64,000 bases of DNA, taken from assembly GCA_002205965.3 (NCBI GenBank), contig NADL03000088.1:186001-250000 (forward strand), read 5' to 3'. The notes beneath the pieces were generated by a model. The model did not search any database, was not told the origin of the DNA, and saw only the letters and a program-made list of their open reading frames with translations. Positions 2,127-63,396 of this stretch are shown in pieces. Each line of letters opens with the position of its first letter. Within the stretch, counting starts at the first letter, position 1. The DNA is from Kappaphycus alvarezii (Eukaryota > Rhodophyta > Florideophyceae > Gigartinales > Solieriaceae). The position numbers and the translations under genes were made by a program.

Positions 2127-4557
2127 CTATTCGACATCTGCACGCTCCCGTCTTCCCTCATTCTGCAGGTGATTCCTTGCAATTTCCAACGCCATTTCAT
2201 ATGCCCTTCCGTTTTCCTTCTCAGTTGCATCGACAAATCTTCCATAAAACTCTTCTCGCGATGCTGGGCTGTACTGCGCGGCAGACAATACACGGTGCAG
2301 ATAATTTGATGCCGTCTTCTCCATTTCTAGGTTCCTACTCTCCCCATCATCTTCATAACTGTCCTCCTCCCATTCGCTGTGATCCCTAGGTCATACAAAT
2401 CCCCAAACACTGCCGCATTTCCCTTTGAGAAGCGCGTGATGGCCTTCAGATACGCCCACATCTCTATTCCGCTCTCGTAAGGTTCCCTGAATCTTTCTAC
2501 CTAGCATCGTAGTCCTCTTGTGAGGGTTTCATGCTCTCATAAATATTATCGAGGACCGAATGCGCGTCCAGCCCGGCTGCGCGCAAATGCGCCAGTGCCA
2601 TCCTCCTCATGGTAAATGATGGTGCATCATTCACAGCCGAGTCCCGGTTGTTCACATCAAACGCGCAGCTGTTTAGTAGCGACTGCCCGCCGTCAGCAGC
2701 CTTGCTGCGGAATCCTTTCCCAAGAAACGTGTTGCTTTCCACTGCCACAGGGCTGCCGTCTTTATTCGAAAAACGGCGGTGCTTCCCAATCGCCGGGATT
2801 GTCCCGTTGCTTTCCTTTGCGGGCCTGACTTGGGGTAACAGCGACTTCCATGTCACATCCGCATCTTTCGTCATCACTCCAGATACTAGCACTGCGTCGT
2901 GGGCTTCGTCATTCAGAATCAGTTGGCCGCCTGCCCCAGCTTGAATTGCGGAATAAGATGCCTGGACGTACTTGGCAATACCAGCTTCGATGAGCAAATG
3001 GAACATGCTATGAACCTCCGACGGGGAAGCAACGATATTGTTCATCACATCTCCCAGACGCTGTATTAGTTGCATGTTCGATGACTTCGCGGCACGTTCC
3101 GGGTTTGTGATGGCAGCTATCTGTGCTCTGTGATACATGTATCCCTGGCGCCCTGTCCACGTTAGAGGAGCCAGTGCATCCATGGTATGGACAGCTTCGC
3201 TTTCCTGTTCAAGGCCGAATCCGAGCAACGTACTGAGAGTGGCTTGACGCCAAGCACCGTACAAAGTCCTGGTTGACAGTTTGAGGAAATGCTTTTTTGC
3301 CCACCATGTCCCCGTTTTGCTCACAAATCCCGGCGTTGCGGCGGCACTGCAGGTGCCATTCAGTTTCCTCAAACTGCGTCTCAAGCAAGGACTCAGTGGA
3401 CGTGGGCTCGTGGAGCTTCTCTGGGGTGGTTCCCGTCGCCCGAGCAACGGCACACTCGAGAATGTCGTACCAAGCCTTGAAAACTTCCTCGCCGTTCTGA
3501 TGAAGGAAGAGGGCATAGATTCCGCGTGTTGCCGATGACCGGAGTTCCCTGTTGCCAATTGTGAGTGAAAGCATGCCTTGGGAGTGCGGCCTTCCCGGCT
3601 CCTGCTGATGTAAGTGAGGGCACCTGGGTAGGCCTGCTTTGCAAAATCTGTCACTCTATATCCGAGAGTGAATCTTCGTCCTCCTCAAACAAATTCATGA
3701 TCGAGCTAAGCGCGGCAATCTGGTCCAGTCCAGACAAGCTCATCCCACCGCTAATAATGCGCTTGCCCGGAATTAGCATACCGTAGCGTTCAAGAGGCCC
3801 TGCTGCGGAGAAACTGCCTGAGGTCAGCAGCGTTCATCGGCTGGCAGAAAGTAGACCTATTTACAGAGGGTCAGAGATGGGATTCACTAGGGCGTGCCAG
3901 AATTGAGTCGGACGACGTCAGCGTGATCTGATTGATGGCCGGAGTCGACATGCTGCACGGTAGCTGTGGCCTGATGGGTTCCGTTGAGACTGATTTGAGT
4001 AGCGAGAGTCGAAGGACGAACGTCCAGTTTGAAGAAGGGGAGGTGCTCTGCGGCGAGCTGGCTGATGTGTGAAAATGATGAGCTCCTCCTCACCAACACT
4101 TCGGCGCATGAGGAATGCTTTCTCCTGATCGAGCATGCCTTGAGGAGTATAGGACATGGGGCCGAGGGATTTTTTGAACATTACAGCCCCGGGCAGATTG
4201 CGTTGACTTAGGGAAAAGAGGTAATGCCCAACATCCACACCCCCGAAACGCCGCTCATAGCGTTCGCGGTAGCTGAGCAAAGCCTTGATGGCGTCCTTTT
4301 CTGGGCTCTGATGGGCGACAGGGATCGGGAAAGTAATATCGCCTTCGACGGTGTGTTAGTCATACCCTCATGGCCTGCTGAGAATGCCATACCTGCGCCC
4401 ACATACGGTTGCTTCTCAATGATTGTGGTCGTGACATCGTAGTGAGCGCCGAGCTCCTGGAGGTATTGGAAATGTTCATTATAGAGAAGCATGAAGACCA
4501 TGTCGGAGCTAGCCTGGATGACACTGCGAGGGCCTCCGCCGACAGAAGAAGATCCAT
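2127..4557 (-). pseudogene. FAD/NAD(P)-binding oxidoreductase-like protein, copy 1 (frame-broken)
   Basis: Read from the ATG at 4557, the coding signal runs about 810 codons to a stop at 2127 across several frame changes. The N-terminus has a Rossmann-type VGGGPRS (GxGxxS) nucleotide-binding motif, followed by an IIEKQPYVGAGMAF segment. Together these resemble the FAD-NAD(P)-binding family PF13454, whose members begin with a GGGPRG-type loop; substrate and pathway are unknown. The C-terminal part (2497-3654) is one long open stretch ending near a one-base deletion relative to the copy at 31692-34113. The tail with ASNYLHRVLSAAQYS lies in another frame at 2127-2324. Start choice: the ATG and about 140 bp upstream are conserved with copy 2. 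It may be a true pseudogene or a gene with assembly indels. Family call moderate; function not claimed. Confidence 0.55.
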
Positions 4558-4687
4558 TTGTTACGTTTTACGAAGGTTGGAAGGTAAGAAGTCGCGAAGA
4601 TGGTTGAAGTTAAAGTAAGCTCTTCCAGTTGCTGCTGAGTGAGGATGGGACAGTGATGGGAACAAAGTCAAGAGAAAGATAGGCGAT

Positions 4688-4700
4688 TATTTATGTATCT
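4688..4700 (-). promoter_or_regulatory. Candidate TATA-like element of FAD/NAD(P) gene copy 1
   Basis: On the minus strand this reads agatacataaata, about 130 bp upstream of the ATG at 4557. The same 13 bases occur about 130 bp upstream of copy 2 (31552-31565). Conservation of both sequence and spacing between the diverged copies supports a promoter role; this is inference. Confidence 0.4.
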
Positions 4701-45495: not shown

Positions 45496-45502
45496 AGACT
45501 GC

Positions 45503-45826
45503 GTGCACTGCATGACTCTACTTTTGTTCTTTAGATGTCATGTTTTTCAGACCAGGGCCATGTATTTATTTGTGCAGCATGTTACCATAATAGGTGACAA
45601 CGCAGAAGCAGAAAAGGCGATACGCGGGGCGCTACAAGTCGCAGTTGGGTACTGGACGTTTGAGATGCCGATCGTCTGCATGCAGTGCATGGAGGCTTTA
45701 ATAATGTATGTCTCACTTCAATTGATGGCTACTTTTGGAAACAAAGTATCACGTTGCTGAAGCACCTTCCGTTTTGGATGCCACCGTTTTCGTCTCACGC
45801 ACAGAGTCCTGAAATGGAAAATTGTT
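45503..45826 (+). CDS. Conserved short ORF upstream of the peptide gene, left copy (broken)
   Basis: Homologous to 63684-63959 in the right arm. Shared segments include IIGDNAEAEKA, YWTFEMP and, after frame shifts here, LPFWMPPFSSHTQSPEMENC ending at a stop near 45826. In the left copy these lie in different frames. A pyrimidine-rich cttttgttctttag just upstream resembles a 3' splice site, so this may be a terminal exon of a gene whose earlier exons are outside the repeat. Function unknown. Confidence 0.35.
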
Positions 45827-46013
45827 AGAAGACTACACTTTCATTGAGGTTCTATCTGCGCTGTTTACTTTGTCGAACGCATAACATGTAGCAAAAATTC
45901 CGATTTCTCTCAGTTGGTTATCCATAATGAGTTTACATAGTATCTAGCCACCAAACGGGATACAGACTCAGTTTAATGCACAAAGAACTGTCGACGTGAG
46001 GGTTCGCTACTGG

Positions 46014-46020
46014 TATATAA
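46014..46020 (+). promoter_or_regulatory. TATA box of left peptide precursor gene
   Basis: TATATAA lies 96 bp upstream of the ATG at 46116, so a start about 30 bp downstream would leave a 65-70 nt leader. The element and leader are conserved in the right arm (63493-63499). Confidence 0.6.
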
Positions 46021-46115
46021 CACATCCCCGCCCCTCCTGGTACTCCAAACACTTCTCTCCCAAATCTCAGTTCATCTCTGACTCGCATTCTCACCGCAGC
46101 ACAAAGACTTCAAGG

Positions 46116-46726
46116 ATGTCTCGCTTGTTCTTCTTCGCTCTCGCCCTTGTGGCGTTGCTTCTCACAACCTCGCTGAGATTCCCACATCAACCAACACTAT
46201 TCGAGCTGCAGACGCCCAGCTTGCCAAGCCTCTGTCCCTTGGTAACATCGTTCGCTCCGGTGATGATGACGATGATGATGACGATGACGATGATGACGAG
46301 ATGACGAACGGTGGCAGTAACGGTGGAGGAAAGACCATTTCTAGGACAGTTTTCTTCTGTGATGCTATTCGGGGCCTAGGGTTCCTCCGTCGCTGCCGCT
46401 TGTGTGTCAGGAGTTGCCTCCGCCGTTTTGGCGTCACTATTGAAAAGAAGATTCCTATTGGCAGCGTGGCGTGATGACATGACGATGACGACGACGACGA
46501 CGACGATTGCGATGATGACGATGATGATGATGATGACTACAGTGGTGGTTGTGGAGGGAAAACGAAATTCATAACTCGCACTAGAAGGGTTTGTGGTAGA
46601 GGTAATCGTCGCTGTTTCTGGTGCTCTCGTAGATGCCGTTTCCGTTTTGGTATTGCTAGAGTGATTGTTACTGCGGTCGGTGGCAAAAGCGGCGGAGATG
46701 ACGACGATGATGATGACAGGCGTTGA
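46116..46726 (+). CDS. Secreted precursor with two Arg/Cys-rich cationic modules and poly-Asp spacers, left copy
   Basis: The first 20 codons (MSRLFFFALALVALLLTTS) form a clear signal peptide. A short pro-segment with AADAQLAKPLSLGNIVRSG leads into a run of about 12 Asp. Module 1 follows a GGGK linker: Cys codons at 46358, 46394, 46403 and 46415 give C-x11-C-x2-C-x3-C, with core RRCRLCVRSCLRRFG. A second poly-Asp run (about 46481-46537) precedes module 2. There the core RRCFWCSRRCRFRFG repeats the C-x2-C-x3-C and R-F-G pattern, with an earlier Cys six residues before the first. A final Asp run ends in RR and a stop at 46724-46726. Relative to the right copy there is a one-base deletion at the signal cleavage region (near 46171) and an in-frame double stop at 46472-46477. 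The alternating acidic and cationic pieces suggest a charge-neutralised antimicrobial-like multi-peptide precursor; this is inference, and no known family is recognised. Confidence 0.6.
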
Positions 46727-47053
46727 AGAAACCGTAGAGGAAGTCCTGGAAAGGAGGCAGGTCTGTGAGCTCTGGGTGGATGATTAATGGTACCGATAGA
46801 CTAAGTTTTGTATTAATCTTAATGAAGAGCCCCATCTATGTTTCGCCTCATGCATTCCTATAAACCTGGATTCCATTTTCATCAAAGGGATCCATATCAT
46901 TTGCTTTTGATTAAGTAGTCTATCCAAGTAAGTTCATGAGAGCATACTACCGGTACAGCGATACGTCTGTTTCTGTGACAACAACATTTATGACGTACAC
47001 ATTTTTCATGGCGTATTCCTATGCCCTGTTCTGATTACAGATAAACTCTGCAC

Positions 47054-47641
47054 GCTTTATCCAACATTAAGTTTTTCATTGTTTCCAACCTGACTACAAA
47101 ACTTTCAGAGCGAGTTTGGAGATGGAGGAACACGAAGGGTTCATTTAACGTGACAGATGTGCTGGCTGATACCAATCCAACTTTTATGAGTGTAAAATCG
47201 AGACAGTGATGTCCATTGTTAGTATTTATAGGTATTTGCTTTTGACAAAAGAAAAGTGGTGTGATCAGAGAGCAGGTCATAACAGGATTAAATCAGTGCT
47301 ACATTGCAAGCAAAATGCAATGAGCAACCATAACCGCGCAGAAATAGTGTGAGTAGAAACTCGCAATCCCGCGATTATCTGTTTCCCTGTTTTCCATGAT
47401 CTCTCACCGTAAAAATCCACTGATGACGACCATCTGAATGCAGAAGACAGACATTGCCACGCTTACCTAGACAATTGTCTGGAAGCCATATGGATTTTGC
47501 GAAGTTGTGGCAGTATACTCATGAATATTATTACTACCGGCCTTTTAAATAGTTCATAATCGGAATCCTGCCGTGATGCCCTTGTGTGATAGTTAGTTCA
47601 TAGAATGATTGACAGCTATCCTTGAAAGGAAAGAGCTGGAG
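47054..47641. repeat. Segment z, left-arm copy (588 bp)
   Basis: One of three copies; the others are 58833-59420 and 61874-62461 (both reverse-complement). The minus-strand ORF 47035-47280 in it is maintained in all copies only because the DNA is near-identical; no protein family is recognised. Confidence 0.9.
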
Positions 47642-47748
47642 GACTGTAATATAAGTTTGGCCAGGTATAGCAAAGAGTCAAAAAAGATATCTTCGTATTA
47701 GAACTTTGCCACCTACTAGTCGACCATTTAAGATTATAAGAAAGGGAA

Positions 47749-47810
47749 AAGGTTTGGGTGTTTTACTCTTGGAAGATATATCCGGTCTATCCCATGGTTT
47801 TCCAGACAAC
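47749..47810 (+). repeat. Dispersed 45-60 bp motif, left-arm copy
   Basis: Reads aaggtttgggtgttttactc, then ttggaagatatatccggtct and atcccatggttttccaga. Confidence 0.8.
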
Positions 47811-47866
47811 CGAAATCAACTCAACAAGGGGATACCGACACCGTAATGGGAAAGGAACTACGCTCC

Positions 47867-48121
47867 CTAAAATGCTACCTTCAGGCCAGCCATCAAGCAG
47901 GCCGCATTGGACATGACGGCTGATGCGGCGTTTATAAGAAAGTGATTTGGGAGTCTTTCAATATCACTCCTGTCTAGGGAACCACAAAATGGTCCCGGTC
48001 TTCTCAAAAATCTTCCTGAATGAGCAGCATGGAGAAGCTCAGTGTGGGGTTGCTGTTGTTGCAGGTGAGTTGCATAAAATTCAATGACAAACGAGTGACT
48101 TTTCTGATGGGATCTGATCAT
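47867..48121 (-). pseudogene. Reverse transcriptase C-terminal tail, left-arm copy
   Basis: An 84-codon ORF ends SAVMSNAACLMAGLKVAF and a stop, resembling other RT tails in the window. The upstream part (LLHAAHSGRFLRRPGPFCGS) is not recognisable. It is identical to 61394-61648 on the right arm. Confidence 0.4.
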
Positions 48122-50003
48122 AATTACTATTTAGTCTGCTAACTACTGTCAAACAATACCTATACTTTCTTTGACTTGTCATCAAAAGCATTGGTGTTGC
48201 TGGATTTATTGCCGTAATCGGTATTTGACAAAAAAGACATTGAATCCTGACTAATAATATTTTTTGCAGGACTAGTTATTACTAGCTAAATTACACAGAT
48301 TCGAATTCAGCTACGGTACTATGTTGACTACATCAGTTTTACTTTCAATTACTAGTAGGGTTATCGCTGGGCTTCATCAGCCGCTCTTTCGTCGTATTCA
48401 ACTCCGGCTTAAACCTCCCGTCTAAATATTCCTTCCGTCTGGACTTCCCACCTGTTTAGATTTTTCTCAGCTTTATTCGGTTAAAAATCATGGATATACC
48501 CCTTGGCAACAACCTTTAAGAAGTTTTGTAGTAGTTACAGTACTTTTGATTGAAGTCATTTCTCACAGCTACTCTGTCCTTCCAGTTTTATTTTTTTTTC
48601 GGGAAAAATCCAATAGCGATATATTGTTTCAACCCTCGGGTCATATTTATTAGGCTTCTGTAGTCTCAAGAGAAGAGAACTTTACGAAGTTATCATAAAA
48701 TTGCAGTCTATTGCATTGTAACATTTTTATTCACGTAATATTTTTCTACATATTAATTCTCTATCTGACTGTCTGGTTCCGTTAACTTTTTTCGTAATGC
48801 ATCAAAATCAGAAACAGTAGCTTAATTTGAAGCCTTTGTCACCCATATGTATCCACTCCGAACTCTTTCTTTCGTAAAAGTAAATTTATTCTCCCTGGAC
48901 AAAAAGTGGCGATTCTTCTGTAGGGCAGATAACATTTTTCTATCTTTCAGTAGCTCTAGTTCCGGTGAAATATCTTTTAAATAAATGGAATGTTCTTGAA
49001 CCAATAATGGCTCCGTTTATTCATATATTTCATAAAATTAATACACTTCAATTTTGTGCACAGATGAACGTTGATATTGTGCTGCGACAAGATTGGGCTC
49101 AAGCAAAAATACTTCCTCATATTTTCTATTCTCTGGGCTCAATCGCAACCAACATAATCACAGTCCGCGAGGAACTCCCAAAGGAAGTTCTTTCGTTACA
49201 TTTTTTAATGAAAGTTTATGAGAAATTATTTTGTAATGTTCTTCATTCATTGTAATACCAATTCACATATATATAATTCCTACTCTACTAAATCATTTCT
49301 ACTGAACAGGTGTATATCTACAGCTCGAAACTTGAAATATCCTTCGAGCCCAAAATGTGTGACATTTTCATTCAAAATTCTTGTAAACGGGTCAGCTTTT
49401 TATTTGGACTGTCTTGATATATTTATGAGTTCTAATATCTAATACTGATTTGTTCAAATATAATTTTCATTACTTGCTTTATAAACTTTCCAAGTATCAG
49501 TTATGAAATTCACTTTCGGGGTTCCAACCGCATCATAAATATCTGTACTTTGTGGAATGTGAGGGTTTCTACAATATGTGGATCATAGTAAAGGTTTTTT
49601 TCAATCTTATTAGAAACATTAATGGCGTTGCCTATTCCATAGCGAATATCTGCTTTCAATGAGATGAACATCTACAGATATACAATAGAAATTTATACAG
49701 AGTCAAGGGAATAAATCATAAACCAGCACCATATTGCTAATTACACTAACCAAACTAACAACATAGAACGGAAGTTATTTGAAGGACTAAATAGACCCTT
49801 CACCACGATATGTATATCTTTTGTGGCCTCTGACTCTGATTGTTAAAATCAAGTATTCATCAAATGCAAAATTTCATAATTTTCTTAACTTTTTATATTT
49901 TAGCTGCTGTGCAGAACATATTTGACGTGACAAAAACTGCTAATAATGCCGTCGATGATCCCAAATATAGCCCCTTCGTTGCAAATTTCGTAAAAGCAAA
50001 AAA

Positions 50004-50023
50004 GTCACCTCATATAAGGTGAC
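50004..50023. repeat. Hairpin near the inner end of the left arm
   Basis: gtcacct and aggtgac flank a 6-bp centre, about 70 bp from the arm boundary. The same hairpin lies at 59489-59508 in the right arm. Confidence 0.8.
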
Positions 50024-50092
50024 CCTTAATTTTATTACCTGTGGTGAAGTAATCATTCCGTACTAAACAAATGATAGACAATACTGAGGAGA

Positions 50093-52840
50093 CTAATTCC
50101 AGTTATCTTACCGCTAATTAATGTTCTCGTGTAATATATTGTGTGAAAGTGAAACTTATGTTCAAATTTCTCATCATTTTAAATTTTATATAATTTTTAC
50201 TATTTTCGATTCTTAGGAGTCGAGGAATATTTTTAAATCCTTCATATCGTCAATGATTCAGTTTATCAAGAAGAATAGGTTTCAGTCTGGTAAAGATTGT
50301 TGAACGAAATATATAAATTTCAAGTTTTAGATTGGAGCTTCCCGCCACTAGGTGACGGGCGCGGAGTGCTTGGTTCCATAGGGTAGTTCCTTATGGGCCT
50401 GTTTTTTTGGAGAGCAGACGGAGCCGGGTGAGAATCCGACCTGAATCAATCAAATATTGAGAACACAAGGTCTGTTACGGAGTTGTTCAAACCAGGATTT
50501 GCTAACTTGGAAGCTTTCAGACGAGGTAGCGAATTCGCATATGATTGCCGCCCATCACGTGACTGATCCCTTACTCACGCCACACAGTTACACTATGCAG
50601 GCGGGTAAACCGTTGGAGTTCAGACACGAGATGCTTGACCTGTCCATGTAAACCGTTGAAATCATGTTCCGGTTCACGGAGCAGGGAACGGACGTCAATT
50701 TCTAAAGCAAATTGGACTAGTCAAAAACGAAGAAAAGATTCTCTGGGCGGCTTAAGCTTCCATAGGACGTCCAATCAAGCGGCCTCTGCCTTCTCAAAAG
50801 GCGTTGGGGGGTCCCCCGGGAATTCCAAATCATGCCAATCTCCTTAGTCCTTCCCTTCCTCTCCGTAATCGCCTGACAAGTCGAACATGGCAATGTTTTT
50901 CTTATGATTTCCAGCGGCGTATAGATTATTAACATATTGTGGTGGAAATAAAAGGTTCCTTAAATTTGGGAGTCTGGAAGGCTGAACCATGTGAGTTTGT
51001 GAGGAAGGCGTTTTGCAGCAAAGGGGATAGGGTAGATCTTCATTCTATCTACCGCAGAAAGATAATTGACATGTTGCATATTTGGAAATACTTATTGCGT
51101 GATAGAAATTGCATGCATTTGTGAAGTAAAAAGAAGTTTTAGGTAGTATTGGTTGAGATACAGTATTTTGCTACATATAGTATGACCTGCAGTAAACCTA
51201 GAACTAATGTAATGTGGTCGCATTTGAGAGAGAGAGAATTTTACTGAGGCATGAACATACCAGGACAACAGAACTACGGATCAGGGTGGTTTAGCTCTCT
51301 GCGATTGATAGAAATCGCAGTATGTTTGAAGAGTAGTGCTAATGTTTTTATAAAGGTCCCCCCCGCTAGAAGTGTCAGACGACGAAGTAAACTACCCTAT
51401 CATTACCCCTTGTTATAAAGGATAATTCTGACTCTATCAGCGAAAGCAATACATTGAACAGTCAAACAGCTCCCGAACCTGTCAAATGACCCTCATTTTC
51501 GCCTCGAGCCCTCCATCGCTGAAAGTGCACCTCTCTTACTTACTTATTTTCACGCTGGTACCAAAAGAGTGTCTCTCCTAGAAAATACCCCCAAGCTCTT
51601 GTTTATATAGATTATATCATGAGAATTGGCCCAATAATGGCAAAGGTATCTCATTTCAAGAAAGAACCCCGAAAGAATGTAAACATGAGATATACTGACC
51701 TACTAGTAACGTTACTAGATACGATGTTTAAGAGGGAGTCACCTAGTTCCTGTCGGTTGGAGACCTACAACTCCCTCGCTTACCTCCTTCACCCCTGAAC
51801 TATGGAAGCAACGACGATTCACTATTACGTTTCGGTAACAACAAGAAATAAAGAATAAAGCTGAATCTTCAGATCGCTTCTTGGTATACAGAATCAAGAG
51901 GCTCCTTACTCTCTCTTTATATTTCTTTCCCGTAAAGCTCCTGATATTACTCTATATCAGCCACGCCGCCTCGTTATGTCAACATTTCATCATTATAACA
52001 TCAGCATTCGACTTTAATACAGTTGTGCATGATTTCATGACGATGCGCTGAAACACTTACAGCAAGTAATGCGTCTCTAACCGAGAGGAACCAGTTACAT
52101 ATATTTTGCATACAGCATCCAGTATCGTTTCTAGTTTGTTAATATACTCCAAGTCTACATGCTTTACGTTTTATCTCTTGAAATACAATACCTCTTTCAT
52201 TCTTTGGCCAAATTTCATGATTGCATTGATATAAATAAGAGGAAAGAAGGGTTCTCTACGGAGATACAATCATCTGGTGCTTGCTTGAAGAAAAGTGTCC
52301 TCATGCAGGCTCCCTACATGTCCTACCCCAGAATTGTAGCCTGCAACAAAACGTAAAGTCCCTGCAAGAGCGTAATAGTATCTTTGGGCTTGCGAACTCT
52401 AGATACTTCTTGTGCACTGACACATTTCTCTTCGTTTACCTCTTCATGTGTGAGTCCAGTGCACAAATTCATTTTTCATATAACAAAATCATTCTTCACT
52501 GCAAATTTAAGACAATTTCTTAGGATGGGAATCTATTTATTGGGTACGAGTGTTTTGGACTACTCTTGGATGTAGCCACTCATAAAGAGGAGAGACATGT
52601 AAATTTCTAAATATCATTCGGCGTTTTCTTGCAGAGACGGTATTCTTTCTCGTTAACTCTCTCACTCCATCCAAATGAGAGCTAACTCCGACGTTATATT
52701 ATATTTCGGAGAGGCTGGATCTGAATAAACAGCATCTGTTCGCTTATCGGCGTTATGCTTAGACAGCATTTCGTTCAATGTTATGGGTGTCAAAAATTGA
52801 AAAACTATTTTAAGATTACTGGAAAACTATTTAGTTTGTC
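50093..52840. other. Spacer of the large inverted repeat, left part
   Basis: AT-rich with a less AT-rich patch near 50340-50900. Short ORFs (50457-50651, 50635-50847, 52159-52356) are unrecognised. It contains the third 45-bp module copy at 51358-51405. Confidence 0.5.
51358..51405 (+). repeat. 45-bp shared module, copy 3 of 3
   Basis: Reads cccccgctagaagtgtcaga then cgacgaagtaaactacccta. Here it sits alone in AT-rich DNA, with no reverse transcriptase around it. Confidence 0.75.
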
Positions 52841-57544: not shown

Positions 57545-58832
57545 GAATTGAATATGTTCCACAAACGGATCGTTTAATGTTGATACATAAAACTATACTT
57601 AGCTTTATTTGATGAGTATCTGTTTCTAACGACCAGCATGAGAGGCCACAAAAATACATCTATCCTGGTGAGGAGTCTTTCAAGTCCTCAGAACACAATT
57701 TAAATCTAAATTATCAGTGAAAGTGCGCTGACTCGTGCTAATTTATGATTCACTTCCGTAGCTCTGTGCAAATTTCTCTTTTAAATCAGGAGATATTGGT
57801 ACTATTTGAATAAGAGCTTTGTTAAGTATTCGCGAAAGCCGTTAAATATGTGGTAATCATTGGATTTCTACACTTTACTACGATCTACACGTGTAGAGAC
57901 CCTCACCTTCCACCGAGTACAGATATTCATGATGCAGTTGAAAATCCGTGAATTGAATCTTATGAGTAACACTTGGAAACTTTATACTGCAAAAATGAGT
58001 ATACTATTGAAACAAACTATTTTGAGAAATCTGAGCTCGTAAAGATATCAGGATAGCCTAAAATAAAACTGTCCCATCTACAGGAAATTTGAATGAAAAT
58101 GTCATACATTTTGGGCTCGAAGGATATTTAGAGTTTCCAACGGTAGATTTACACCTGGCCAACAGAAGAAACTGAGTAGAGCAGTAACTATTCATGTGAA
58201 TTGGTATTCCAAGGAATGAAGAATATCAACAAATACATTCCCATAGACATTAATTCAAAATTTCAACGAAAGTATTTCCTACGGGAGTTCCTCGCAAATT
58301 ACGATTAGATTAGTTGCGCATGGGATCTGAGAATAGCAAATATACGGAAACATTGTTCCCTGAGCCCAACATCGCAGCATCAGCAGTCCGACATTCATGT
58401 GTGCACAAAAATTGAAATGTATGAATTTCATGAAATATCTGAATAAAGTTGTACATTACTAGTTGGAAAATATTCCATCGTTTCGATAGGTACTTCATAC
58501 AAACTGAAGCTACTAAAAGATTCAAAACTATTGTTTTCCTGCAGAAGAAGCACCACATTTTGTCTAGAGAGAGTAAATGTATTTTTACGATGAAAAACTC
58601 AAAGTGGATACTTAACTGTGAAAAATGCTTCAACTGAAACTAAGAGTTCTGATTTTGCTGCCTACCAGAATTGTTAAAGAAGTAAAAACTAATGTAGAAA
58701 ATTTACGTATAAACATCTTTATAATGAGTATGAATGCCACAATGCAATGGACTACAATTTTAAAAAAAACTTCATCAAATTTTCTCTTGAGACAATCGGA
58801 TGAGTAGTATATAGGATTCTCGCCATTCAGTT
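57545..58832. repeat. Segment x', diverged direct copy of segment x
   Basis: Alignable with 59580-60860 in the same orientation. For example gaggccacaaaaatacatct matches gaggccacaaaagatataca, and cattttgggctcgaaggata is shared at 58111 and 60157. Many substitutions and indels show it is much older than the near-identical arms. Confidence 0.8.
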
Positions 58833-59420
58833 CTCCAGCTCTTTCCTTGCAAAGATAGCTGTCAATCATTCTATGAACTAACTATCACACAAGGGCATCA
58901 CGGCAGGATTCCGATTATGAACTATTTAAAAGGCCGGTAGTAATAATATTCATGAGTATACTGCCACAACTTCGCAAAATCCATATGGCTTCCAGACAAT
59001 TGTCTAGGTAAGCGTGGCAATGTCTGTCTTCTGCATTCAGATGGTCATCATCAGTGGATTTTTACGGTGAGAGATCATGGAAAACAGGGAAACAGATAAT
59101 CGCGGGATTGCGAGTTTCTACTCACACTATTTCTGCGCGGTTATGGTTGCTCATTACATTTTGCTTGCAATGTAGCACTGATTTAATCCTGTTATGACCT
59201 GCTCTCTGATCACACCACTTTTCTTTTGTCAAAAGCAAATACCTATAAATACTAACAATGGACATCACTGTCTCGATTTTACACTCATAAAAGTTGGATT
59301 GGTATCAGCCAGCACATCTGTCACGTTAAATGAACCCTTCGTGTTCCTCCATCTCCAAACTCGCTCTGAAAGGTTTGTAGTCCGGTTGGGAATAATGAAA
59401 AACTTAATGTTGGATAAAGC
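58833..59420. repeat. Segment z', recent direct copy of segment z
   Basis: Near-identical to 61874-62461, with about ten differences seen by eye. It is joined directly to diverged x' on its left and to segment x of the right arm on its right; the roughly 1-kb segment y is missing here. Confidence 0.9.
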
Positions 59421-59508: not shown

Positions 59509-61393
59509 TTTTTTGCTTTTACGAAATTTGCAACGAAGGGGCTATATTTGGGATCATCGACGGCATTATTAGCAGTTTTTGTCACGTCAAAATATGTTCT
59601 GCACAGCAGCTAAAATATAAAAAGTTAAGAAAATTATGAAATTTTGCATTTGATGAATACTTGATTTTAACAATCAGAGTCAGAGGCCACAAAAGATATA
59701 CATATCGTGGTGAAGGGTCTATTTAGTCCTTCAAATAACTTCCGTTCTATGTTGTTAGTTTGGTTAGTGTAATTAGCAATATGGTGCTGGTTTATGATTT
59801 ATTCCCTTGACTCTGTATAAATTTCTATTGTATATCTGTAGATTTTCATCTCATTGAAAGCAGATATTCGCTATGGAATAGGCAACGCCATTAATGTTTC
59901 TAATAAGATTGAAAAAAACCTTTACTATGATCCACATATTGTAGAAACCCTCACATTCCACAAAGTACAGATAATTATGATGCGGTTGGAACCCCGAAAG
60001 TGAATTTCATAACTGATACTTGGAAAGTTTATAAAGCAAGTAATGAAAATTATATTTGAACAAATCAGTATTAGATATTAGAACTCATAAATATATCAAG
60101 ACAGTCCAAATAAAAAGCTGACCCGTTTACAAGAATTTTGAATGAAAATGTCACACATTTTGGGCTCGAAGGATATTTCAAGTTTCGAGCTGTAGATATA
60201 CACCTGTTCAGTAGAAATGATTTAGTAGAGTAGGAATTATATATATGTGAATTGGTATTACAATGAATGAAGAACATTACAAAATAATTTCTCATAAACT
60301 TTCATTAAAAAATGTAACGAAAGAACTTCCTTTGGGAGTTCCTCGCGGACTGTGATTATGTTGGTTGCGATTGAGCCCAGAGAATAGAAAATATGAGGAA
60401 GTATTTTTGCTTGAGCCCAATCTTGTCGCAGCACAATATCAACGTTCATCTGTGCACAAAATTGAAGTGTATTAATTTTATGAAATATATGAATAAACGG
60501 AGCCATTATTGGTTCAAGAACATTCCATTTATTTAAAAGATATTTCACCGGAACTAGAGCTACTGAAAGATAGAAAAATGTTATCTGCCCTACAGAAGAA
60601 TCGCCACTTTTTGTCCAGGGAGAATAAATTTACTTTTACGAAAGAAAGAGTTCGGAGTGGATACATATGGGTGACAAAGGCTTCAAATTAAGCTACTGTT
60701 TCTGATTTTGATGCATTACGAAAAAAGTTAACGGAACCAGACAGTCAGATAGAGAATTTATATGTAGAAAAATATTACGTGAATAAAAATGTTACAATGC
60801 AATAGACTGCAATTTTATGATAACTTCGTAAAGTTCTCTTCTCTTGAGACTACAGAAGCCTAATAAATATGACCCGAGGGTTGAAACAATATATCGCTAT
60901 TGGATTTTTCCCGAAAAAAAAATAAAACTGGAAGGACAGAGTAGCTGTGAGAAATGACTTCAATCAAAAGTACTGTAACTACTACAAAACTTCTTAAAGG
61001 TTGTTGCCAAGGGGTATATCCATGATTTTTAACCGAATAAAGCTGAGAAAAATCTAAACAGGTGGGAAGTCCAGACGGAAGGAATATTTAGACGGGAGGT
61101 TTAGAGCCGGAGTTGAATACGACGAAAGAGCGGCTGATGAAGCCCAGCGATAACCCTACTAGTAATTGAAAGTAAAACTGATGTAGTCAACATAGTACCG
61201 TAGCTGAATTCGAATCTGTGTAATTTAGCTAGTAATAACTAGTCCTGCAAAAAATATTATTAGTCAGGATTCAATGTCTTTTTTGTCAAATACCGATTAC
61301 GGCAATAAAATCCAGCAACACCAATGCTTTTGATGACAAGTCAAAGAAAGTATAGGTATTGTTTGACAGTAGTTAGCAGACTAAATAGTAATT

Positions 61394-61770: not shown

Positions 61771-61873
61771 CTTTCTTATAATCTTAAATGGTCGACTAGT
61801 AGGTGGCAAAGTTCTAATACGAAGATATCTTTTTTGACTCTTTGCTATACCTGGCCAAACTTATATTACAGTC

Positions 61874-62461
61874 CTCCAGCTCTTTCCTTTCAAGGATAGC
61901 TGTCAATCATTCTATGAACTAACTATCACACAAGGGCATCACGGCAGGATTCCGATTATGAACTATTTAAAAGGCCGGTAGTAATAATATTCATGAGTAT
62001 ACTGCCACAACTTCGCAAAATCCATATGGCTTCCAGACAATTGTCTAGGTAAGCGTGGCAATGTCTGTCTTCTGCATTCAGATGGTCGTCATCAGTGGAT
62101 TTTTACGGTGAGAGATCATGGAAAACAGGGAAACAGATAATCGCGGGATTGCGAGTTTCTACTCACACTATTTCTGCGCGGTTATGGTTGCTCATTGCAT
62201 TTTGCTTGCAATGTAGCACTGATTTAATCCTGTTATGACCTGCTCTCTGATCACACCACTTTCTTTTGTCAAAAGCAAATACCTATAAATACTAACAATG
62301 GACATCACTGTCTCGATTTTACACTCATAAAAGTTGGATTGGTATCAGCCAGCACATCTGTCACGTTAAATGAACCCTTCGTGTTCCTCCATCTCCAAAC
62401 TCGCTCTGAAAGTTTTGTAGTCAGGTTGGAAACAATGAAAAACTTAATGTTGGATAAAGCG
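61874..62461. repeat. Segment z, right-arm copy (588 bp)
   Basis: Near-identical to 58833-59420 (direct) and to 47054-47641 (inverted). Confidence 0.9.
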
Positions 62462-62786: not shown

Positions 62787-63396
62787 TCAACGCCTGTCAT
62801 CATCATCGTCGTCATCTCCGCCGCTTTGCCACCGACCGCAGTAACAATCACTCTAGCAATACCAAAACGGAAACGGCATCTACGAGAGCACCAGAAACAG
62901 CGACGGTTACCTCTACCACAAACCCTTCTAGTGCGAGTTATGAATTTCGTTTTCACTCACAACCACCACTGTAGTCATCATCATCATCATCTTCATCATC
63001 GCAATCGTCGTCGTCGTCGTCGTCATCGTCATAGTTGTCATCACCGCCACGGCTGCCAATAGGAATCTTCTTTTCAATAGTGACGCCAAAACGGCGGAGA
63101 CAACTCCTGACACACAAGCGGCAGCGACGGAGGATCCCTGGGCCCCGAATAGCATCACAGAAGAAAACCGTCCTAGAAATGGTCTTTCCTCCGCCGTTAC
63201 TGCCACCGTTATCGTCATCGTCATGTCATCATCGTCATTCGTCATCATCACCGGAGCGAACGATGTTACCAAGGGACAGAGGCTTGGCAAGCTGGGCGTC
63301 TGCAGCTCGAATAGTGTTGGTTGATGTGGGAATCTCAGCGGAGGTTGTGAGAAGCAACGCCACAAGGGCGAGAGCGAAGAAGAACAAGCGAGACAT
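62787..63396 (-). CDS. Secreted precursor with two Arg/Cys-rich cationic modules and poly-Asp spacers, right copy
   Basis: Counterpart of 46116-46726. The ATG at 63396 opens the same signal peptide, here in frame through the predicted cleavage (TTSA|EIP) and the pro-segment. In the first Asp run one extra base and one missing base (about codons 53-58) create a local stop, after which the original frame resumes. Module 1 (RRCRLCVRSCLRRFG core) reads through SRGG and the second Asp run without the stops present in the left copy. Just before module 2 a one-base deletion (near 62957) shifts the frame, and another lies after its GGK. The homologous stop is at 62787; in the shifted frame translation would run to 62726. 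Lesions do not coincide with those of the left copy, so the ancestral design is visible. No family recognised. Confidence 0.6.

Follow-up and report, generated by a model that had tools for sequence, protein, structure and literature searches.

A putative acid-masked precursor family with paired cationic Cys-rich modules in Kappaphycus alvarezii, represented by damaged-looking copies in one 64-kb window

At 46116-46726 of the 64-kb window (the whole stretch of DNA analysed here), runs of Asp codons separate two Arg- and Cys-rich modules, raising the question of whether the locus encodes a secreted precursor and, if so, of what kind. According to the original prediction, it holds one continuous precursor with a hydrophobic N-terminus, three Asp runs and two Arg/Cys modules. 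All of these elements are present in the window; however, they are split between two frames, and a single intact ORF is ruled out by a frame change near 46170 and two stops at 46472-46477. The frame of 46116 supplies the ATG and the signal sequence MSRLFFFALALVALLLTTS, which we judged to be a signal peptide by eye, and then departs from the family sequence near the frame change. The frame of 46118 carries the pro-region, Asp run 1, module 1 to 46471, the stops, Asp run 2, module 2 and Asp run 3, after which it terminates with a stop at 46724-46726. The features are listed below, where L011 is an open paralogue elsewhere in the genome.

46014-46019, + strand: TATA box, 102 bases before the ATG
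46116-46169, + strand: start codon and most of the putative signal peptide, in the frame of 46116, with the frame change near 46170
46172-46261, + strand: short pro-region, in the frame of 46118; 14 of 29 amino acids identical to L011
46262-46300, + strand: Asp run 1, 12 Asp then Glu
46310-46465, + strand: cationic module 1, C-x11-C-x2-C-x3-C-x2-RFG
46472-46477, + strand: two adjacent stop codons between the modules, absent from the seven open near copies
46481-46537, + strand: Asp run 2, a central Cys with nine Asp on each side; this Cys also in L011
46538-46696, + strand: cationic module 2 with linker Cys, GGC...C-x6-C-x2-C-x3-C-x2-RFG
46697-46726, + strand: Asp run 3, Arg-Arg and stop; Arg-Arg end in 8 of 8 open members
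45499-50094, + strand: left arm of an inverted duplication, carrying copy 1; 98.4% identity with the opposite strand at 64000-59418
62791-63396, - strand: second, inverted gene copy, broken too, at places other than those of copy 1

The inverted copy (63396-62791) went unmentioned in the original prediction, as did the Cys of Asp run 2 and that of the module 2 linker. The arms of the inverted duplication extend beyond the window end and are distinguished by 65 difference events, 55 of them within 45553-46685. A candidate partner gene in the duplication, a 123-aa ORF at 48884-49255, was rejected because it is interrupted or incomplete in the related stretches fetched from contigs C88 (which holds the window), C531, C873 and C877; this ORF is identical in both arms (48884-49255 and 60258-60629) and is probably no gene. 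A 593-base segment occurs three times at ~98% identity (47054-47646, 58828-59420 and 61869-62460), with one copy directly adjoining the end of an inverted arm. Rfam and tRNA scans of the 64-kb window returned no match.

A multi-copy family on other contigs

Searching the genome assembly (336,021,096 bases in 884 contigs) with the gene DNA, we found matches at 33 places: 9 near copies that are 93-100% identical, the window's two counted, 3 diverged copies at 65-67%, and 21 short matches. Seven of the nine near copies (L003-L009) are uninterrupted ORFs of 200-204 codons with 10 Cys, and in these seven the N-terminus seen in the window continues in frame; the two broken near copies are both in the window. 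Among the diverged copies, L011 is open, and L010 and L012 are broken, the latter on the window's contig. The eight open members, L003-L009 and L011, all lie on contigs other than the window's. The nine short matches inspected of the 21 (six loci, L013-L018) consist of Asp runs without modules, and diverged members beyond the three matched at the DNA level may exist. On comparison of these copies, the window locus is best described as a member, damaged in appearance, of a genuine multi-copy family.

L011 is 65% identical to L003 and has the same order of elements: signal peptide, pro-region, Asp13, module 1, Asp11-Cys-Asp11, module 2, and Asp9-Arg-Arg. The Asp block lengths are thus 13/11/11/9 in L011 versus 13/11/10/8 in L003, and run lengths also differ among the near copies, with run 2 of L005 containing Asn and Ala. 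The TATA box of the original prediction recurs: all 10 genes examined (the 9 near copies and L011) have a TATA-type box at -101 to -106.

The family copies are clustered in the genome. The short contig C877 carries three of the seven open near copies and is 98.4% identical to C873 over 12 kb, so its copies may be alleles or assembly duplicates instead of extra genes. Beside the three-copy gene cluster of C873, the locus L019 (C873:20000-29999) holds ORFs at ~21.0-23.8 kb of that contig, which we take to resemble a copia-type retroelement. C88:258-276 kb is collinear with C531:19-39 kb at ~79-89% identity, with a near copy and a downstream diverged paralogue on each, the result either of an ancient segmental duplication or of haplotypes that have diverged strongly. 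C88 and C531 are 92% identical over the interval from 1000 to 500 bases ahead of the gene and 95% identical over the last 500 bases and the gene; past the gene the identity is 88, 84 and 82% in three stretches, with 386 gap columns in the last.

Module structure, constraint and searches for relatives

Both modules contain C-x2-C-x3-C-x2-RFG in the same register, in agreement with the core given by the original prediction; RFG, placed there two or three residues after the core, follows by two in both. The motif arises by chance in 4 of 200,000 shuffles of module 1 and 20 of 200,000 of module 2, and in the six frames of the window it occurs at four places, all in modules of the two gene copies. 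The open members have a Cys spacing of C-x6/11-C-x2-C-x3-C in all eight cases, with no CC pair, and two additional Cys, at the centre of Asp run 2 and within the linker that precedes module 2, are likewise invariant in the eight. This gives ten Cys per chain: four per module, one mid Asp tract and one in the linker. The Gly-rich linker had been described as of the type GGxGGK, which is not general: the linker before module 2 is GGCRGK in the open near copies, and in L011 module 1 is preceded by GGR and module 2 by GGCKK.

The earlier proposal of an internal duplication kept under constraint is supported. A local alignment of the two modules scores 64; when module 2 was shuffled 20,000 times, 2 of the shuffles scored as high. 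Comparing L003 with L011, module 1 against module 1 scores 156 and module 2 against module 2 scores 168, versus 62 and 84 for module 1 against module 2 inside one protein and 52 and 71 for module 1 against module 2 across proteins; the comparison of L003 module 1 with L011 module 2 (52) is weak, being reached by 63 of 10,000 shuffles. Each module is thus nearer to the corresponding module of the other paralogue than to its partner in the same chain, which suggests that the internal duplication came before the duplication of the gene and that the two modules have seemingly kept separate identities since then.

Between L003 and L011, 26 of 47 amino acids are identical in module 1 and 32 of 50 in module 2 (58 of 97 together); the pro-region is the most variable part (14 of 29). 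In the modules of this one pair of open sequences, on which the selection test is based, pS is 63.7/74.3 = 0.86 and pN is 55.3/216.7 = 0.26, and no pN/pS ratio is quoted because synonymous sites are saturated. Across the 159 codons outside shared Asp columns, codon positions 1, 2 and 3 differ 53, 40 and 106 times. Neutral change in the Cys codons of other copies, the outcome that the original prediction had named as contrary to it, is not what the open paralogue records: 10 of 10 Cys are kept in L011, and 5 of the 10 codons have changed, silently only. There are 41 shared Asp columns, with a GAT/GAC switch in 14. The broken L010, by comparison, has Phe in place of one module 1 Cys, a stop in place of a module 2 Cys codon, and eroded Asp runs. 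The open paralogues thus conserve the family layout, the ten Cys and the Asp blocks, and the modules are under purifying selection between them.

These comparisons bear on the reading that there is no gene here, and that the open frames are a chance product of GAY microsatellites. Trinucleotide repeats do indeed encode the Asp runs, and long stretches are open in the antisense frame too, but the eight open members, the codon-position pattern, pN versus pS and the erosion of the Asp runs in L010 make this exceedingly improbable; provided that the alignment of L011 holds, the paralogue comparison rules out a microsatellite artefact.

Searches for relatives agree with the remark in the original prediction that no described family is known to have this layout. 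A protein search with L003 gave 373 candidates, none at E <= 0.001, and one with part of L011 gave 8 candidates, none at E <= 1. Among the 7994 candidates listed and scored in a family-profile protein search there were two rows, P0001 (E 0.17) and P0002 (E 0.22), both rejected as relatives since they are poly-Asp proteins without the modules. L003 and L011 together gave 8 rows in Pfam and 3 in NCBIfam at E <= 1, all below the curated cut-off, the best (E 0.011 and 0.017) each lying over Asp run 2; in a scan of window pieces with profiles of the same type, module 1 gave no rows and module 2 gave two, also below cut-off. Against PDB sequences, the module 1 piece had 11 rows, mostly over the Asp run and none better than E 0.29, and the module 2 piece had none. 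No relative was found among viral contigs, prokaryote contigs and a phage collection, part of the viral and prokaryote scans having used Asp-run patterns. Nothing similar appeared among the literature matches listed. At the sensitivity of these protein and contig searches, which depend on close similarity or on short words in common, the family appears to be an orphan, found so far only in this genome.

Possible functions of the encoded protein

The reading we prefer, to which we give about an even chance, is that of an orphan, amplified precursor of host-defence type, in which Asp blocks mask two cationic Cys modules. The product would be a secreted precursor of ~200 residues, with a signal peptide, a short pro-region and two related cationic Cys-rich modules set between Asp blocks. 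Predicted net charge is +9 or +12 for module 1 and +14 or +15 for module 2; owing to the Asp blocks, the mature protein is acidic overall, at -16 (L003) and -15 (L011). The Asp blocks may keep the cationic modules inactive within the secretory pathway, and the modules could then be freed outside the cell by proteolysis, reduction or ion change, to act on anionic microbial surfaces, as in an Ib-AMP-like antimicrobial precursor. Masking, release and antimicrobial action are inferred.

Among the closest known systems is the Ib-AMP precursor of Impatiens balsamina, which consists of a signal peptide and six basic four-Cys peptides between acidic propeptides (PMC10136942). The likeness lies in the signal peptide, the short, highly basic four-Cys peptides, the acidic propeptides between them and the restriction to one species. 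The order of signal peptide, cationic Cys units and acidic separators is found in seven of the nine near copies and in L011. The Ib-AMP peptides, as described there, differ in being six 20-residue CCx8Cx3C units, whereas here there are two modules of ~50 residues with C-x6/11-C-x2-C-x3-C and spacers of almost pure Asp with an invariant Cys; the two are set apart by description, not by alignment. The mature motif CCx8Cx3C is absent from the modules.

Defensin and cathelicidin precursors also place an acidic propeptide next to a cationic antimicrobial peptide. The family resembles them in that an acidic block adjoins a cationic peptide, but here each of the two modules has an Asp block on either side, and the family has no match in Pfam or NCBIfam. 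Protegrins and tachyplesins, with Cys spacings of C-x-C...C-x-C and C-x3-C-x4-C-x3-C, are likewise Arg/Cys-rich with four Cys; they differ from the modules in Cys spacing and length, and the hairpin of this kind suggested originally is not supported by the C-x6/11-C-x2-C-x3-C of the eight open members. RFamide-type neuropeptide precursors share the acidic spacers and the RFG string, which in them is followed by Lys or Arg. In the copies read here the residue after RFG is Val, Ala or Ile (RFGVT, RFGIA, RFGAA, RFGVR), leaving no amidation-cleavage site, and this candidate was rejected.

Masking of this kind has a parallel in a model system, in which attaching ten Glu residues to a cationic peptide inhibited its antimicrobial activity completely (PMC6057973). 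The authors of that study observed no complexation between acidic and basic parts and ascribe the inhibition to a conformational change and further effects (PMC6057973), so that simple charge pairing is not an established mechanism. The Cys invariant in Asp run 2 argues against a spacer that is merely cut out and discarded. A variant that we consider unlikely is a self-inhibited, disulfide-gated precursor, in which the Asp-tract Cys pairs with the linker Cys and clamps the Asp tract to module 2; the mask, instead of being a passive spacer, would be opened by reduction or proteolysis. If so, it would be a red-alga defence-precursor design without description among the literature matches listed. 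The broader acid-masked reading, if true, would give a red seaweed its own orphan family of cationic peptides encoded by genes, an unusually simple charge masking by near-pure Asp blocks, and an open multi-copy gene set for direct tests of masking, processing and activity.

The Cys within the Asp tract, together with the absence of conserved cleavage sites (no dibasic site around the modules is conserved in the open copies), also suits a structural cell-wall protein that stays uncut, whose Arg/Cys modules would bind sulfated galactans (carrageenan) and whose Asp blocks would bind calcium, cross-linking the matrix via ionic bonds and disulfides. The Kappaphycus cell wall is anionic and sulfated, and two distinct modules in fixed order, several copies and a secretion signal would all fit such a role. 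We nevertheless hold it to be possible but somewhat improbable, given that the modules are compact, Cys-rich and not repetitive, and that no wall protein family was matched in Pfam or NCBIfam. Such alternation of charge would be unusual for a matrix protein. A metal-binding or redox protein, in which C-x2-C-x3-C clusters and Asp tracts hold metal ions, is suggested by the presence of that cluster in both modules of both paralogues and by the ten Cys per chain, and Asp runs can bind divalent ions; it is quite unlikely, since the window modules are without His, strongly basic modules would probably be poor sites for metal cations, and no known metal-binding family was matched in Pfam or NCBIfam.

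AlphaFold models, built from alignments of four window sequences per module, have a pLDDT of 58.3 for module 1 and 44.7 for module 2; they are unreliable and are given no weight. The low-confidence model of module 1 has a strand, a short helix over the Cys cluster and another strand.

Frame breaks in the window copies

The damage to the two window copies could come from errors in the assembly or from true decay. The breaks lie at different places in two copies that are 98.4% identical, and all eight open members are on other contigs, both of which argue against true pseudogenes. So does an excess of one-base gaps on the window's contig: 78 in C88 against 43 in C531 (p 0.002) and 76 in C88 against 45 in C873 (p 0.006), with C531 and C873 even between themselves (10 and 13). 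The excess is patchy, amounting to 4 versus 0 and 8 versus 0 in the gene-bearing kilobases 232 and 269, though some other kilobases have none. In addition, a conserved TBL1XR1-like WD40 gene of the same contig (window 14620-13540, - strand) changes frame mid-gene, with no intron in the stretch compared: residues 108 and 30 of its two pieces align to TBL1XR1 residues 225 and 231 and are 13 bases apart, too close together for an intron to fit. Assembly errors are therefore the more probable cause of the frame breaks in the window copies.

True pseudogenes are a doubtful but substantial alternative. The nearby L012, which shares the contig with the two window copies, is broken as they are, and the differences between the arms are uneven, dense in the gene-bearing part noted above. 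The control contig C877 has a one-base gap excess as well (20 versus 8 against C873 and 19 versus 9 against C531), yet its three family copies are open. Finally, both window copies differ from L003 by three amino-acid changes and three silent ones in common in the module 2 tail, a count that omits the break-adjacent codons 116-118, 130 and 146-147 as well as any change that only one copy carries; with shared changes in these proportions, constraint on the window's contig may be relaxed.

Elsewhere in the window lies a 2.6 kb inverted pair, 91% identical (2133-4700 and 34118-31553), whose ORFs, as far as pieces of them were compared with Pfam, matched no family there, and one of which had no match among viral contigs either; the pair is perhaps an unclassified mobile element.
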